Source: a virus
Virus record (IMG/VR): IMGVR_UViG_3300030104_006433
Coordinates: 96,545-160,544 of that record
DNA: 64,000 bases
Direction: 5' to 3' (one strand)
The notes under the pieces are model-generated. The model ran no database searches. It was not told the origin of the DNA and saw only the letters and a list, made by a program, of their open reading frames with translations. A program made the translations under genes and the position numbers. This document shows, in pieces, positions 3,197 through 32,464 of the stretch (the first letter of the stretch is position 1; each line of letters begins with the position of its first letter).

Positions 3197-3226
3197 GGGG
3201 AGACTTAGGTCTCCCCTTTTTTTTTT
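3197..3226 (+). terminator. Intrinsic terminator
   Basis: Perfect 8-bp stem ggggagac/gtctcccc with a ttag loop, followed by ten T residues. It closes the transcript of the upstream structural genes. Confidence 0.93.
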
Positions 3227-3240
3227 CATATTTCCCTGAA

Positions 3241-3248
3241 TATTTATA
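3241..3248 (+). promoter_or_regulatory. Putative late promoter box TATTTATA
   Basis: TATTTATA lies 38 bases before the ATG at 3279 and directly after a terminator. It recurs upstream of most tail genes; by position and shape it resembles the single-box late promoters of T4-like phages (T4: TATAAATA). Confidence 0.55.
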
Positions 3249-3278
3249 CGTAATAATGTTACATTTTTAAAGGGTATT

Positions 3279-3635
3279 ATGAGTATATTATCTGATCTGG
3301 GAACGTTCCTGGGGGAAAAATTTAGTTTAGTAAATCAAAACATTCAAGAAAACAAAGAAAGCTTAAGTTCTCTTGAAAATGAAATTACTGACCTAAAATT
3401 AGAGATAGAAAATCTTAAAATATTACATAATGAATATAAAGTAAAAGGAACAAATATTCCTGTAGACTTAAATATAGTGGCTTCTAATAAAGGAGTCACC
3501 TTTATGACTGAAAATGGCAACCAATATAGAATTCGTATTAATGATAATAAAAAACTTATAGTAGATGATATATTAAATAATGAAAATAATATAGCCGAAA
3601 TTCAATTAACAACAACTTCAAATGAAGAAGCTTAA
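3279..3635 (+). CDS. Small coiled-coil protein, probable structural
   Basis: 118 aa. Residues about 15-55 form a heptad-like coiled coil (Leu/Ile at regular spacing among Glu/Lys/Asn), followed by a small probably beta-rich C-terminal domain. It is a single-gene unit: own TATTTATA box upstream and own bipartite terminator downstream. No family recognised. Confidence 0.72.
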   Translation: MSILSDLGTFLGEKFSLVNQNIQENKESLSSLENEITDLKLEIENLKILHNEYKVKGTNIPVDLNIVASNKGVTFMTENGNQYRIRINDNKKLIVDDILNNENNIAEIQLTTTSNEEA

Positions 3636-6259: not shown

Positions 6260-6748
6260 ATGGCAGTATTAGATCCCAATGAAATATTTTTCACCGCTTT
6301 TGAACCAAAGCAAGCTAACAGATTTATCCTTTATATGGATGGTATACCAAGTTTTATCATCAAAGGAGTTAGTGCTATATCATTAACACAAGGTGAGGTA
6401 ATATTAAACCACATTAACATTCTTAGAAAAGTTAAAGGAAAAACAGTATGGAATGATGTTACAATGACATTATTTGATCCTATCACTCCATCAGGTGCTC
6501 AGGCAGTTATGGAATGGGTAAGATTACATCACGAATCGGTAACAGGTAGAGATGGATATTCTGATTTTTATAAAAAGAATTTAACTGTAAATGTTTTAGG
6601 ACCAGTAGGTGATATAGTATCAGAATGGATATTACAAGGAGCATTTATTAAAGAAGCTACATTTGGTGAATATAGTTGGGACACTGAAAATGAAGCTAAA
6701 CAAATTGAATTAACACTTGGATTAGATTACGCAGTATTAAATTTCTAA
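6260..6748 (+). CDS. Tail tube protein (gp19-like)
   Basis: 162 aa, almost the same length as T4 gp19 (163 aa), and directly downstream of the sheath. It shows the features of the T4-type tube family: an N-terminal FEPKQANRFILYMDGIPSF segment, a central region on tail-tube beta strands (KGKTVWNDVTMTLFDPI), and a C-terminal EIELTLGLDY-like strand. Subunits stack as hexameric rings to form the DNA conduit. A strong terminator follows, so the tube can be transcribed as a high-level single-gene unit. Confidence 0.95.
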   Translation: MAVLDPNEIFFTAFEPKQANRFILYMDGIPSFIIKGVSAISLTQGEVILNHINILRKVKGKTVWNDVTMTLFDPITPSGAQAVMEWVRLHHESVTGRDGYSDFYKKNLTVNVLGPVGDIVSEWILQGAFIKEATFGEYSWDTENEAKQIELTLGLDYAVLNF

Positions 6749-6846: not shown

Positions 6847-7587
6847 ATGGCAGAATTTAAGTTACCTACAGAGACAATAGATCTTCCCTCTAAAGGTTTA
6901 ATGTACCCTAAAGAAAATCCACTTTCTTCAGGTAAAATTGAAATGAAATATATGACCGCTAAGGAAGAAGATATTTTAACAAATCAAAATTATATAAAAC
7001 AAGGTATAGTAATTGATAAATTATTAAAATCATTAATTGTAAATAAAGATATCAATTACAATGATTTATTAATAGGAGATAAAAATGCTATTATGGTAGC
7101 AGCTCGAATTTTATCTTATGGAAAAAATTATGAGTTTTCATATGAAGGTGAATCTCAAAATATAGACTTATCTAAAATTGATCCTAAAGAATTAGAATTG
7201 GATTTATATAAAGATGGTAAAAATGAATTTGGATTTACTTTACCACATACAGAAAATAAAGTAACATTTAAAATTTTAACTCACGGTGATGAACAAAAAA
7301 TAGAATCTGAAGTAAAGAGTTTAAAGAAAATAAATAAACAATCATCAAGTGAAGTAACAACTAGATTTTCTCATATTATTACATCTGTAAATGGTAGTTC
7401 AGAAACAAAAGATATTAGAGAATTTGTTAATAATTATCTTTTAGCTAAAGATGCTAGAGAATTAAGAAAATATTATCAAGAAGTATCACCTGATTTAGAT
7501 ATGAAAGTATATCTAAACACACCTACAGGCGAAGAGGAGGTCGCGGACCTACCTATAGGTCTTAACTTTTTTTGGCCTGACTCCTGA
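6847..7587 (+). CDS. Tail assembly chaperone / baseplate hub assembly protein (gp26-like), short form
   Basis: 246 aa. The N-terminus (IDLPSKGLMYPKENPLSSG) and the following all-helical region match the T4 gp26/gp51-type assembly proteins of T4-like phages. It lies between the tube and the tape-measure candidate, the classic place of tail assembly chaperones. The frame ends LNFFWPDS-stop, just after a run of seven T. The +1 frame continues at once with an open, protein-like extension (see 7574-7864), so I read this as the short, unshifted product of a two-product frameshifting gene. Confidence 0.75.
   Translation: MAEFKLPTETIDLPSKGLMYPKENPLSSGKIEMKYMTAKEEDILTNQNYIKQGIVIDKLLKSLIVNKDINYNDLLIGDKNAIMVAARILSYGKNYEFSYEGESQNIDLSKIDPKELELDLYKDGKNEFGFTLPHTENKVTFKILTHGDEQKIESEVKSLKKINKQSSSEVTTRFSHIITSVNGSSETKDIREFVNNYLLAKDARELRKYYQEVSPDLDMKVYLNTPTGEEEVADLPIGLNFFWPDS
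7567..7574 (+). promoter_or_regulatory. Putative ribosomal frameshift slippery site (T7 run)
   Basis: Seven consecutive T (7567-7573) are read as TTT TTT T in the 0 frame, nine codons before the end of the short form. A +1 slip joins the 0 frame to the open downstream frame. Just upstream is an unusually GC-rich, foldable patch (aggtc-gcg-gacct at 7538-7550, then accta/taggt). A sequencing error in the homopolymer is the main alternative. Confidence 0.5.
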
Positions 7588-7864
7588 TTATAGGGAATTT
7601 GTTTTTACAACTATTCATGAAATAGTTTTTCATGGTAAAGGGGGATATGATTGGAATACTGTCTATAATATGCCCATATGGTTAAGGAATTTAACTTTTA
7701 AAAAAATTCAAGAGTTTTATGAAAAAGAAAGTAAAACTAGGGCAGGCAATCCAGAAAAAAGTTGGGTAGATCCTAAAATGAAAAACCAAGCTAAAAGAGA
7801 AAAAAAGACAGTATCTCCACCTAGTTTTGTAAGACCTCAACAATCAAAAACTTCATATAAATAA
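7574..7864 (+). CDS. C-terminal frameshift extension of the tail assembly chaperone
   Basis: This frame is open from 7559 and encodes GLTPDYREFVFTTIHEIVFH onward before its first ATG at 7670. The pre-ATG stretch looks like real protein, and the first ATG has no special start context, so independent initiation is unlikely. Joined by a +1 (or -2) shift at the T7 run, the product would be about 338 aa. The extension is helical, with an IWLRNLTFKKIQEFY segment and a basic, disordered tail, as in the long forms of tail assembly chaperones that bind the tape measure. If no frameshift occurs, a 64-aa protein from 7670 is the alternative. Confidence 0.6.
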   Translation, partial: GLTPDYREFVFTTIHEIVFHGKGGYDWNTVYNMPIWLRNLTFKKIQEFYEKESKTRAGNPEKSWVDPKMKNQAKREKKTVSPPSFVRPQQSKTSYK

Positions 7865-7901: not shown

Positions 7902-10337
7902 ATGTTATCAAAGGACGATTTTAAAGAATTAAATAGACTTGGAGAAGAATTTAAATCCAATTTAAATGATATCACATCCCAACTCCAACAAAGTGCTAGA
8001 GCTGGAGGAGATATGTCGGGATCTATTAAAGAGGCAGCTTCAAATCTTTCAAGCTATAGAAGTTTAGCAAATGACTTATCACAGTCTAGTAAATCAACCC
8101 TTAAATCCAAAAAAGAATTAGCTAAAATTGATAAAAGAGTTTATGACATTACTCAAAGGCAGTATCGAATTCAATCTAAAATAAAAGAATTAGATGATAA
8201 GAAAAAACAAGCTGGTGAGAAAGAACAAAAACAGATTGAAAAATCAATTACTTTATTACAAGATGCAGGCTATGAACTTAATGAAATTAAAAAAGGATAT
8301 GAAAAGATAGCATCTGAATCTAAAAAAATATCTGAATCTAACCCTTTTAAAGGATTATCTGACTTAGTATCAGATGTACCTATATTAAATAAATTATTTA
8401 AAGATATGGTCTCAGCTTCTGATAAGTTTCGTGAGACTATGGTAGATACAAATAATAAAGTTTTACCATCTTTAGCAGCGGGAATGAAGGAATACTTAAA
8501 GTTAGCTTCTAAAGCAGCTCGAGTCTTTCTAGTAAGATCAGCTATAAAATCTATTAAAATGTTAGATGACTCTTCAGTTAATCTAGCCAACCAAATGAAT
8601 ATCGGTAAGATGGAAGCTGCTGATATGAAAGAAATGTTTACAGCTGCTGCTCAAGCTAATGATGAATTATTACAATCATCATATGATTTAATAAAAGCAC
8701 AAGCAACATTAGGTACTATGTTTGGTACAACAGCTAAACTTAATGATGATACATTACGTACATTTAATATATTAACTGAAAGAATGGGAATAGCAGCTGA
8801 AGCAGCTGGATCTTTAGTTAATTTCTCAGCGGCTACAGGCCAAAACTTCATGGATTTTACAACAGAAATTCAAGGTACTGTTGTAGCAGAGACAGCACTT
8901 TCAGGTATTATGATTGATCAAAGAGCAGTTATTAATGATATTGCTAATTTAAGTAGTGCTACTAAAATGTCAATGCAAGCTCAGGGTCAAAGTTTAGGTA
9001 AAGCAGCTTTTGAAGCTAGAAAATTAGGTCTTAATCTAGCTGATATGGAAAAAATTGGAAATTCTTTATTGGATTTTGAACAATCTATAGCAAATGAGCT
9101 TGAAGCAGAACTTATAACAGGAAAAGAATTAAATCTTGAAAGAGCTAGATCAGCATATCTAAATAATGATATGGTTACTTTTACAGCTGAAATAGCTAAA
9201 AATGTAGGAACAGCTGCTGATTTTGCTAACATGAATAAAATAGCACAAGATTCTATAGCAGCCTCCTTTGGAATGCAAAGAGATGAGTTTGCTGATATGT
9301 TAATTAATCAAGAAGCTTTAAAAAAGTTCTCCAAAGAAGGACTTGAAACTGAGTCTGAAGTAGTTGAAGAAATGAGAAGAAGATTATTAGCTGGAGAATC
9401 TTATGACAAATTAGTAAAAAAATTCGGAAAAAGTGAAATGCTAAATAGAGCTAAAAACCTATCTATGCAGGATAAAATGAACAAAATGATCGAGAAAATG
9501 TATGATGTTCTTGATAAATATGTTAAACCTGTTTTCAAAGTAATAGATGGTTTACTTGAAAAAATGGGTGGTTCAGCTGGTATCTTAATGGGTGGTTTAG
9601 CTGCTTTAGCAATAGGAGGTCCTATTATTAGAGGAGTAATGATGATGGCTCGTTTATTTAGAGGTATGAGAGGACCAATGATGGGGGCACCAGGAATGGG
9701 AATGCCTTTTTACGGTCCGGCTGGAGGACCTGGTGGTGGTGGTATGGGTGGACCTATGTTTATGGGTGGCCCTACAGGTGGTTCTAATGCTTTACCAAAA
9801 GGTGTAAAAGCAGGTACAGACAAATTAGGTAGAAAATTTCATTATGATGCTAAAACAGGAAGAAGAGTTAGTGTGGGTAATATGGCTAGTAAAGCTAGTA
9901 CTTTAAGTAAAGTAGGTAAATTTGGTAAATTTGCTGGAAGAGCAAGTCTACCTGCTATGATTTTAGGTTTAGGTTTAGATTATGGATCAGATAAATTGAA
10001 AGAATCAGGTTATGAAGAGGCTGGTAAAGCAACTAGTGTGTTAGGAGGAGCATTAGGTGGAGCGGGTACAGGAGCTATGTTAGGTTCATTTCTTGGTCCA
10101 ATTGGAACAGCTGTAGGAGGAGTAGTAGGAGGTTTAATAGGTGGTGGAATGGCCGCTTTTTCAGAATATGGAGAAGATACAGAAAAAGCCACAGAACAAG
10201 GATCAGAAGGTGTTCAACAAGCAATTGATAATCAAACAAGACAATTAACAGCAGTATTACGTACAACAAGAAATGTTAATTTCAACCAAAACGCATTTAT
10301 AAGAGAACAAAGTATAAATTATAGTGGAATGAACTAA
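7902..10337 (+). CDS. Putative tail tape measure protein
   Basis: 811 aa. N-terminal half is long amphipathic helix/coiled coil rich in Lys, Glu and Ser. Hydrophobic segments follow at about residues 557-583 (AGILMGGLAALAIGGPII) and a very Gly/Ala-rich membrane-like stretch at about 710-752. Between them is a Gly/Met/Pro-rich linker (about 585-630). Length, helix content, hydrophobic patches and position right after the tail assembly chaperone are what define tape measure proteins, which set tail length and help DNA cross the inner membrane. No sequence-specific family motif is visible, so the call rests on architecture and synteny. Confidence 0.7.
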   Translation: MLSKDDFKELNRLGEEFKSNLNDITSQLQQSARAGGDMSGSIKEAASNLSSYRSLANDLSQSSKSTLKSKKELAKIDKRVYDITQRQYRIQSKIKELDDKKKQAGEKEQKQIEKSITLLQDAGYELNEIKKGYEKIASESKKISESNPFKGLSDLVSDVPILNKLFKDMVSASDKFRETMVDTNNKVLPSLAAGMKEYLKLASKAARVFLVRSAIKSIKMLDDSSVNLANQMNIGKMEAADMKEMFTAAAQANDELLQSSYDLIKAQATLGTMFGTTAKLNDDTLRTFNILTERMGIAAEAAGSLVNFSAATGQNFMDFTTEIQGTVVAETALSGIMIDQRAVINDIANLSSATKMSMQAQGQSLGKAAFEARKLGLNLADMEKIGNSLLDFEQSIANELEAELITGKELNLERARSAYLNNDMVTFTAEIAKNVGTAADFANMNKIAQDSIAASFGMQRDEFADMLINQEALKKFSKEGLETESEVVEEMRRRLLAGESYDKLVKKFGKSEMLNRAKNLSMQDKMNKMIEKMYDVLDKYVKPVFKVIDGLLEKMGGSAGILMGGLAALAIGGPIIRGVMMMARLFRGMRGPMMGAPGMGMPFYGPAGGPGGGGMGGPMFMGGPTGGSNALPKGVKAGTDKLGRKFHYDAKTGRRVSVGNMASKASTLSKVGKFGKFAGRASLPAMILGLGLDYGSDKLKESGYEEAGKATSVLGGALGGAGTGAMLGSFLGPIGTAVGGVVGGLIGGGMAAFSEYGEDTEKATEQGSEGVQQAIDNQTRQLTAVLRTTRNVNFNQNAFIREQSINYSGMN

Positions 10338-32200: not shown

Positions 32201-32271
32201 TGTCAGGTCGTCTAGAGGCAGGACTCCTGGTTTTGGTCCAGGCAACGGAGGTTCGAATCCTTCCCTGACAA
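32201..32271 (+). tRNA. tRNA-Gln (anticodon TTG)
   Basis: Full cloverleaf: acceptor tgtcagg/cctgaca (U1-A72 as usual for Gln), anticodon stem cctgg/ccagg with loop ttTTGgt, T loop ttcgaat. No encoded CCA. First of three tandem tRNAs. Confidence 0.95.
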
Positions 32272-32289
32272 CAAAATTCTTTACATAAT

Positions 32290-32361
32290 GCTCCCTTCGT
32301 CTAGGGGTTAGGACGTCAGGTTTTCATCCTGGAAACAGGGGTTCGATTCCCCTAGGGAGTA
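32290..32361 (+). tRNA. tRNA-Glu (anticodon TTC)
   Basis: Acceptor gctccct/agggagt (terminal G-U pair), anticodon loop ttTTCat, T arm ggggttcgattcccc. No encoded CCA. Confidence 0.95.
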
Positions 32362-32374
32362 CAATTATTAATTG

Positions 32375-32448
32375 GGGGGATTAGCTCAGCTGGCTAGAGC
32401 GCCTGCCTTGCACGCAGGAGGTCATCGGTTCGACTCCGATATCCTCCA
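32375..32448 (+). tRNA. tRNA-Ala (anticodon TGC)
   Basis: Acceptor gggggat/atcctcc (one G-U pair), D arm agctcagctggctagagc, anticodon stem cctgc/gcagg with loop ctTGCac, T loop ttcgact. No encoded CCA. Confidence 0.95.
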
Positions 32449-32464
32449 CTAAAAATTATAAATT

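Follow-up and report, generated by a model that had tools for sequence, protein, structure and literature searches.

The DNA analysed here (the window, 64,000 nucleotides) is the final 64 kb of an IMG/VR virus record of 160,544 bases. Between its tail tube and tape measure genes, it carries a 246-aa frame that stops shortly after a run of seven T residues (T7), and a second frame is open across the same junction (Table 1). This arrangement raises the question of whether a single gene gives two proteins by programmed frameshifting, in which direction the ribosome would shift and what would assist the shift.

Table 1. Features of the predicted chaperone locus (positions in the window)
Feature	Position	Strand	Evidence or remark
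Tail tube gene	6260..6748	+	phrog_4542, E 9.3e-17
0-frame ORF, putative G-type tail assembly chaperone, 246 aa	6847..7587	+	PF12322, phrog_150
GGAGG	7536..7540	+	26 nt upstream of first T
Candidate 5' hairpin GGACCUA-CCUA-UAGGUCU, loop of 4 nt, located 4 nt upstream of the site	7545..7562	+	-8.0 kcal/mol for 7540-7566
+1-frame ORF, T domain, accessible through the putative shift alone	7559..7864, stop 7862-7864	+	homologous to cyanophage -1-frame T domain
AAC codon preceding the run, no final T	7564..7566	+	2/206 end in T vs 108.5 expected
Putative shift site TTT TTT TGG CCT	7567..7578	+	identical 12-mer in 161/206 distinct +1 junctions
Tape measure gene	7902..10337	+	phrog_167, E 6.7e-19

The G protein and its surroundings

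The 246-aa ORF matches the Pfam family PF12322 (gp26/gp51 family; E 2.7e-7; 30.9 bits, above the cut-off of 24.5) and the baseplate hub family phrog_150 (E 1.9e-13). Judging by the title of Vladimirov et al. (2022), the gp26/gp51 proteins are presumably tail assembly chaperones. An AlphaFold2 model of the G protein built from 30 sequences reaches a mean pLDDT of 91.1. When 647 PDB chains were aligned to this model by VIA-align 2, three reached Z 2; among the matches listed, residues 1-93 align modestly (Z below 8) with YqbN (3klu; Z 5.6, rmsd 4.2, 88 aligned residues) and with the HK97 tail assembly chaperone (2ob9; Z 4.8, rmsd 3.5, 79 aligned residues). Foldseek alone gives E 1.2 for 2ob9. 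Judged from its sequence, this ORF encodes the G-type chaperone for tail assembly in a T4-like phage, the chaperone function being a prediction. The tail tube and tape measure genes, which a first-pass annotation made from the letters alone had placed on either side of it, were both recovered by profile matches, and the G gene thus occupies the position of a G/GT chaperone gene. Genome contigs matching G include Flavobacteriales as well as members of other groups, all of them from metagenome bins. Elsewhere in the window, three tRNA genes (Gln, Glu, Ala) are clustered at 32201-32449.

Reading frames at the junction

The T7 run (7567-7573) lies in the context AAC TTT TTT TGG CCT GAC TCC TGA, and the 0 frame ends 14 nt past it, with the residues ...NFFWPDS. 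In +1, no stop occurs from 7559 until 7862-7864, and the first ATG is at 7670; the first-pass annotation had read both the end of the 246-aa frame just after the run and the open +1 frame ahead of this ATG correctly. The -1 frame of the window closes immediately and does not hold the T domain, which departs from the canonical X_XXY_YYZ shift. Read across the junction in +1, the sequence is ...FFGLTPDYREFVFTTIHEIVFHGKGGYDWNTVYNMPIWLRNLTFKKIQEFYEKE..., and the predicted junction peptide of the window's phage is VYLNTPTGEEEVADLPIGLNFFGLTPDYR. The open +1 frame is not due to chance, since 0 stops are found in this frame over the 150 nt past the junction, against 613 in the 0 frame and 258 in the -1 frame (101 of 108 representative relatives, those with enough sequence), and since substitutions per codon position of the T frame amount to 9777/5367/20613 in the representative relatives. 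This comparison demonstrates that the T frame, as judged from its codons, is under purifying selection.

Comparison of the junction in related phages, which the first-pass annotation had proposed, revealed a fixed +1 relation in 249 of 254 loci from IMG/VR and genome contigs (the best-matching loci of each scan). The T domain was in +1 in 80/80 loci in a first scan (best 80 of 596 relatives, 599 stretches), in 78/80 in a second (best 80 of 600 relatives), in 79/80 in a third (best 80 of 598 relatives, 599 stretches, the contigs being partly shared) and in 12 of the 14 relatives found among 39 stretches of genome contigs. The five loci that do not match are L101 (second scan), L351 (third scan) and L213 (genome contigs), which are cut off, L209 (genome contigs), which gives no T-domain match yet has a +1 frame open over 78 codons, and L145 (second scan). 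The latter (IMGVR_UViG_3300008050_005857, about 3200-3420) holds the sole -1 T domain among the relatives of the +1 group; its junction, AAT TTC TTT TGG, is 7 nt longer and has a T-ending codon ahead of the run. Nested among +1 relatives, L145 counts against the +1 reading and represents either a reversion or an assembly error.

A scan with a cyanophage query found the T domain in -1 in 80/80 loci (best 80 of 570 relatives, 600 stretches), and Streptococcus phage GXN1 used as a query retrieved one relative only. Frame reading assigned GXN1 to +1, together with Flavobacterium phage immuto, Microcystis phage Mel-JY01, LR756508, Listeria phage LIS04 and Rhodothermus phage RM378, and assigned XacN1, RAS14, LR756511, Vi01, P-SSM2, S-PM2, HTVC008M, KVP40 and phiM12 to -1. 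The last five share PF12322 with the window's G, as do T4 gp26 and gp51 (E 8.2e-65 and 1.8e-53), but they carry T in -1 behind NNT TTT TTY, unlike the +1 of the window. By hhalign, the +1-group T domains (100 rows) are homologous to those of the -1 group (75 rows, including L197 from phiW-14), with a probability of 92.9 and E 5.3e-8, versus 0.2 for a reversed control.

Conservation of the putative shift site

Merging identical junctions left 300 rows, of which 208 were +1; indexing placed 206 of these and left L085 and L332 unplaced. The site reads TTT TTT TGG in 163 of the 206, TTT CTT TGG in 24, TTT TTT TAC in 14, TTT TTT TAT in 2 and TTC TTT TGG in 2, the remaining row (L202) being AAC TTT TTT TTC. 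The unplaced junctions read TTT CTA TTC (L085) and TTT CTA TGG (L332). Across 193 sequences, the Phe, Phe and Pro codons of the site stand 0.92, 1.00 and 0.98 above synonymous expectation (gene mean 0.10, sd 0.18). A YUU codon in the P site followed by U is present in 205/206 indexed junctions and also in L202; it is absent in L085 and L332. Upstream of the site, UUU_UUU_U was found 0 times in the 49,687 codons of the same 206 ORFs. TGG occurs only 23 times in these upstream codons, yet the run is usually followed by it.

The junctions do not agree on one slip codon: in L085 and L332 (TTT CTA), the second codon offers no YUU_U, so the slip would have to occur at the first, whereas L095 and L159 (TTC TTT) could slip at the second codon only. 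The expected number of T-ending codons ahead of the run (Table 1) derives from each ORF's own usage and has an sd of 6.0, which understates the uncertainty as the rows share descent. The two exceptions to their avoidance are L159, whose run is broken by C, and L202, where the index is offset. Cyanophage -1 junctions are nearly all NNT TTT TTC. Avoidance of a T-ending codon before the run thus means that the -1 heptamer U_UUU_UUU is avoided, and the +1 group is without the heptamer on which the -1 group relies. A second in-frame T7 run (ACT TTT TTT CCC), preceded by a T-ending codon, is present about 45 nt upstream of the site in L033, L056, L059, L060, L061, L068 and L075.

GGAGG and folding upstream of the site

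GGAGG occurs between -40 and -20 in 130 of the 206 distinct +1 junctions, against 30 of 6180 control intervals from the same ORFs; in 94 of the 130, it ends 26 nt ahead of the run, and its codon register differs between relatives. A GGAGG located 10 nt before the slip site is in the known place for a -1 stimulator. Cyanophages have it exactly there, ahead of T_TTT_TTC, in 49/75 -1 junctions; with its 26-nt spacing, the GGAGG of the +1 group lies too far away to play such a role. The textbook -1 signal (GGAGG, 10 nt, T_TTT_TTC) was observed in the PF12322 gene of the cyanophage relatives L214-L293, L191 and L192.

The GC-rich foldable patch (7530-7561) that had been pointed out upstream of the run is real and family-wide. 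In 69 sequences, the mean dMFE of the interval -27..-1 relative to synonymous shuffles is -2.55, versus -0.30 to +0.23 for 14 other intervals. Shuffling codons within columns (108 thinned sequences) gives z -6.9 for -27..-1 (0/100 shuffles) and -6.5 for the overlapping -36..-1, the next two intervals having z -2.1 and -2.5 and four further ones -1.0 to +0.6; after thinning to 73 and 32 rows, z for the 5' folding is -6.3 and -5.3. The folded region has a GC of 0.49, against 0.28-0.46 for other intervals. An excess of -1.31 (se 0.24; other intervals -0.34 to +0.31) is left when the synonymous shuffles are matched for GC, and this smaller value implies that part of the folding effect is raised GC. 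Cyanophage -1 junctions have no folding excess (dMFE +0.34, n=75). Downstream intervals of the T frame show mild structure, with a dMFE of -0.79 at +43, -0.71 at +70, -0.43 at +16 and about 0 elsewhere.

Pairing in +1 junctions is most frequent at -17..-14 and -9..-5. In LR756508, a stem of 7 bp stops 3 nt short of the TTT (-13.6 kcal/mol over a 36-nt stretch); the candidate stem of the window also has 7 bp, and folding of the GXN1 junction gave no upstream stem. RNAalifold found no consensus pair in 55 junctions and a single-pair covariation test found no pair clear of the rest (top z 2.9), so that the hairpin claim depends on folding energy: the place of the hairpin is kept, its register is not. 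A competing fold exists in the hairpin region of the window itself and, like the raised GC, the two neighbouring intervals with negative z, the mild downstream structure and the GXN1 junction, speaks against the hairpin. The fold first obtained for the window, in which the slip run pairs with GGC..GAGGAGG, was rejected after inspection by eye, its outer stem not being kept in relatives.

Proposed mechanism and rival explanations

The gene very probably yields a G-T fusion by +1 programmed frameshifting through UUU/CUU re-pairing, with probable help from a 5' hairpin. The dual-product chaperone suggested by the first-pass annotation agrees with position, homology and conservation alike. As read from the frames, the +1 direction is nearly certain; frameshifting is supported as far as sequence comparison permits, and from this support we infer the shift, its efficiency and the slipping tRNA. 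Expression of the gene can be pictured as follows. Most ribosomes would make the 246-aa G protein. At TTT TTT TGG, the Phe peptidyl-tRNA of a minority would re-pair one base forward (a Leu peptidyl-tRNA may be the one that slips where the site is TTT CTT TGG), and translation onward in +1 would give a 338-aa G-T fusion linking tape measure and tail tube in tail assembly. The hairpin, by forming again in the wake of the ribosome immediately 5' of the site, would probably favour the forward step and discourage backward slip, doing the job of the Shine-Dalgarno duplex in bacterial release factor 2.

A -2 shift of the phage Mu type would reach the same frame with one more residue inserted; the frame relation alone does not separate it from +1, and T7 itself permits -2 re-pairing in the P site. 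However, the frame relation is kept in TTT CTT TGG (24/206), TTC TTT TGG (2/206), TTT CTA (L085, L332) and TTC TTT CGT (GXN1), which by codon-anticodon rules would offer no good -2 re-pairing. This makes a -2 shift highly improbable, and of the "+1 or -2" proposed initially, only the first part is retained. Interrupted runs (TTTCTTT, TTCTTTT, TTTCTAT) also argue against slippage of RNA polymerase on the T run, or a sequencing error, followed by standard translation. That T7 is a homopolymer speaks for this explanation, but the same frame relation is found in independent contigs and in the complete cultured phage immuto, and a C lies inside the run in 26/206 distinct junctions, leaving it extremely unlikely. 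Immuto (NC_055915), which infects Flavobacterium sp. LMO8, has the site AGC TTT CTT TGG. Since the relation recurs in independent contigs, some of them C-interrupted, the presence of six or eight T's instead of seven, as read from the relatives, is itself very unlikely.

The T region could instead be a separate protein starting within or after the junction: it is annotated as a separate hypothetical protein in two records, and GGAGG is present upstream of it. This appears very unlikely, as the first ATG of the T frame mostly comes 33 codons after the site and 11/108 have none, constrained sequence precedes it, and no conserved start is seen by eye after GGAGG. An appreciable chance, though somewhat below even, must be given to a real shift accompanied by an incidental upstream folding that reflects GC-rich codons or a blocking or insulating role. 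GC matching accounts for about half of the folding-energy effect and no hairpin register is conserved, but the folding excess survives both GC matching and column shuffling and is absent in the -1 relatives.

Comparison with known systems

In lambda-type systems, too, the G/GT gene separates the tail tube gene from the tape measure gene, and a small amount of recoding where G ends adds a long G-T to the short G; lambda and most of its relatives shift -1, whereas the window's gene would shift +1 at UUU_UUU_UGG. According to Atkins et al. (2016, PMC5009743), -1, -2 and +1 shifts all occur among tailed-phage chaperones (that of HSTV-2 being very likely +1), and the G-T frameshift is widely conserved, with T4 as the exception. 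PMC12846349 mentions, second-hand, polyT -1 signals in T4-like chaperone genes. Among the papers listed in a literature search, none was seen to describe a +1 case in the T4-like chaperone family or a phage in which a hairpin naturally present upstream promotes +1. Frameshifts of phage chaperones, +1 included, are already known; a +1 form in the T4 family, built in this way, looks new.

The +1 shift of release factor 2 (prfB) relies on a YUU_U P site and forward re-pairing, as would be the case at the window's site. The A-site codon of the family's +1 site is a sense codon (UGG, UAC, UAU), unlike that of prfB. In prfB, a Shine-Dalgarno lies about 3 nt before the P-site codon. No Shine-Dalgarno was found at this distance in the +1 group, whose GGAGG is about 26 nt before the run; the candidate hairpin stands where prfB has its Shine-Dalgarno. 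Release factor 2 uses CUU_U, with UUU_U in a minority, and +1 may "perhaps" be stimulated by 5' mRNA structure (Atkins et al. 2016, PMC5009743). The same review reports that in E. coli UUU_U shifts far less than CUU_U, which speaks against the proposed re-pairing. Huang, Cho and Chang (2018, PMC6321510) report that, on 70S ribosomes, a hairpin that refolds upstream and adjoins the E site promotes +1, reaching about 60% of the effect of an internal Shine-Dalgarno, and attenuates -1. The attenuation of -1 works best with a spacer of about 2 nt and is about halved when the spacer goes from 2 to 5 nt (Cho et al. 2013, PMC3639245). Because its anatomy matches that of these hairpins, the window's hairpin is a putative stimulator; theirs are constructs or eukaryotic viral attenuators, whereas the window's is natural and phage-borne, with a presumed action.

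Evolution of the predicted shift direction

A tree of 71 G proteins (53 +1, 16 -1 and 2 from T4, which were left unscored for direction) implies at least 4 changes between +1 and -1; no shuffle is as low, and the starred branches force 2 to 3. This supports a clustering of the predicted shift directions on the G tree, not a dated switch, the tree having long branches and open forks. It is conceivable, with a chance not far below even, that a large group of T4-like phages flipped the direction of its shift relative to its cousins: the -1 heptamer would have been removed and a hairpin refolding against the E site would push the ribosome forward, its pairs evolving freely while its place is kept, and the cousins, with the same Phe-Phe site, would use GGAGG and U_UUU_UUC to slip back. 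If so, this would be a natural +1 shift, on bacterial ribosomes, in which a 5' hairpin takes the place of the Shine-Dalgarno duplex.

With the +1 sites described here, T4-like phages, cited as lacking the chaperone frameshift, would be represented among both shift directions. Matched natural -1 and +1 sites within one gene family offer a test of what decides direction, and a 5' hairpin acting as proposed would give an in vitro finding its counterpart in a natural gene. The annotation of deposited genomes, in which the T part is missed or split, would also be corrected. In T4 and Campylobacter phage CP220, duplication of PF12322 may replace the frameshift. T4 gp51 has extra C-terminal sequence, in frame. 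Two PF12322 genes are found in T4 (L092, 503-1129 and 1180-1929) and in CP220 (L198, L199).
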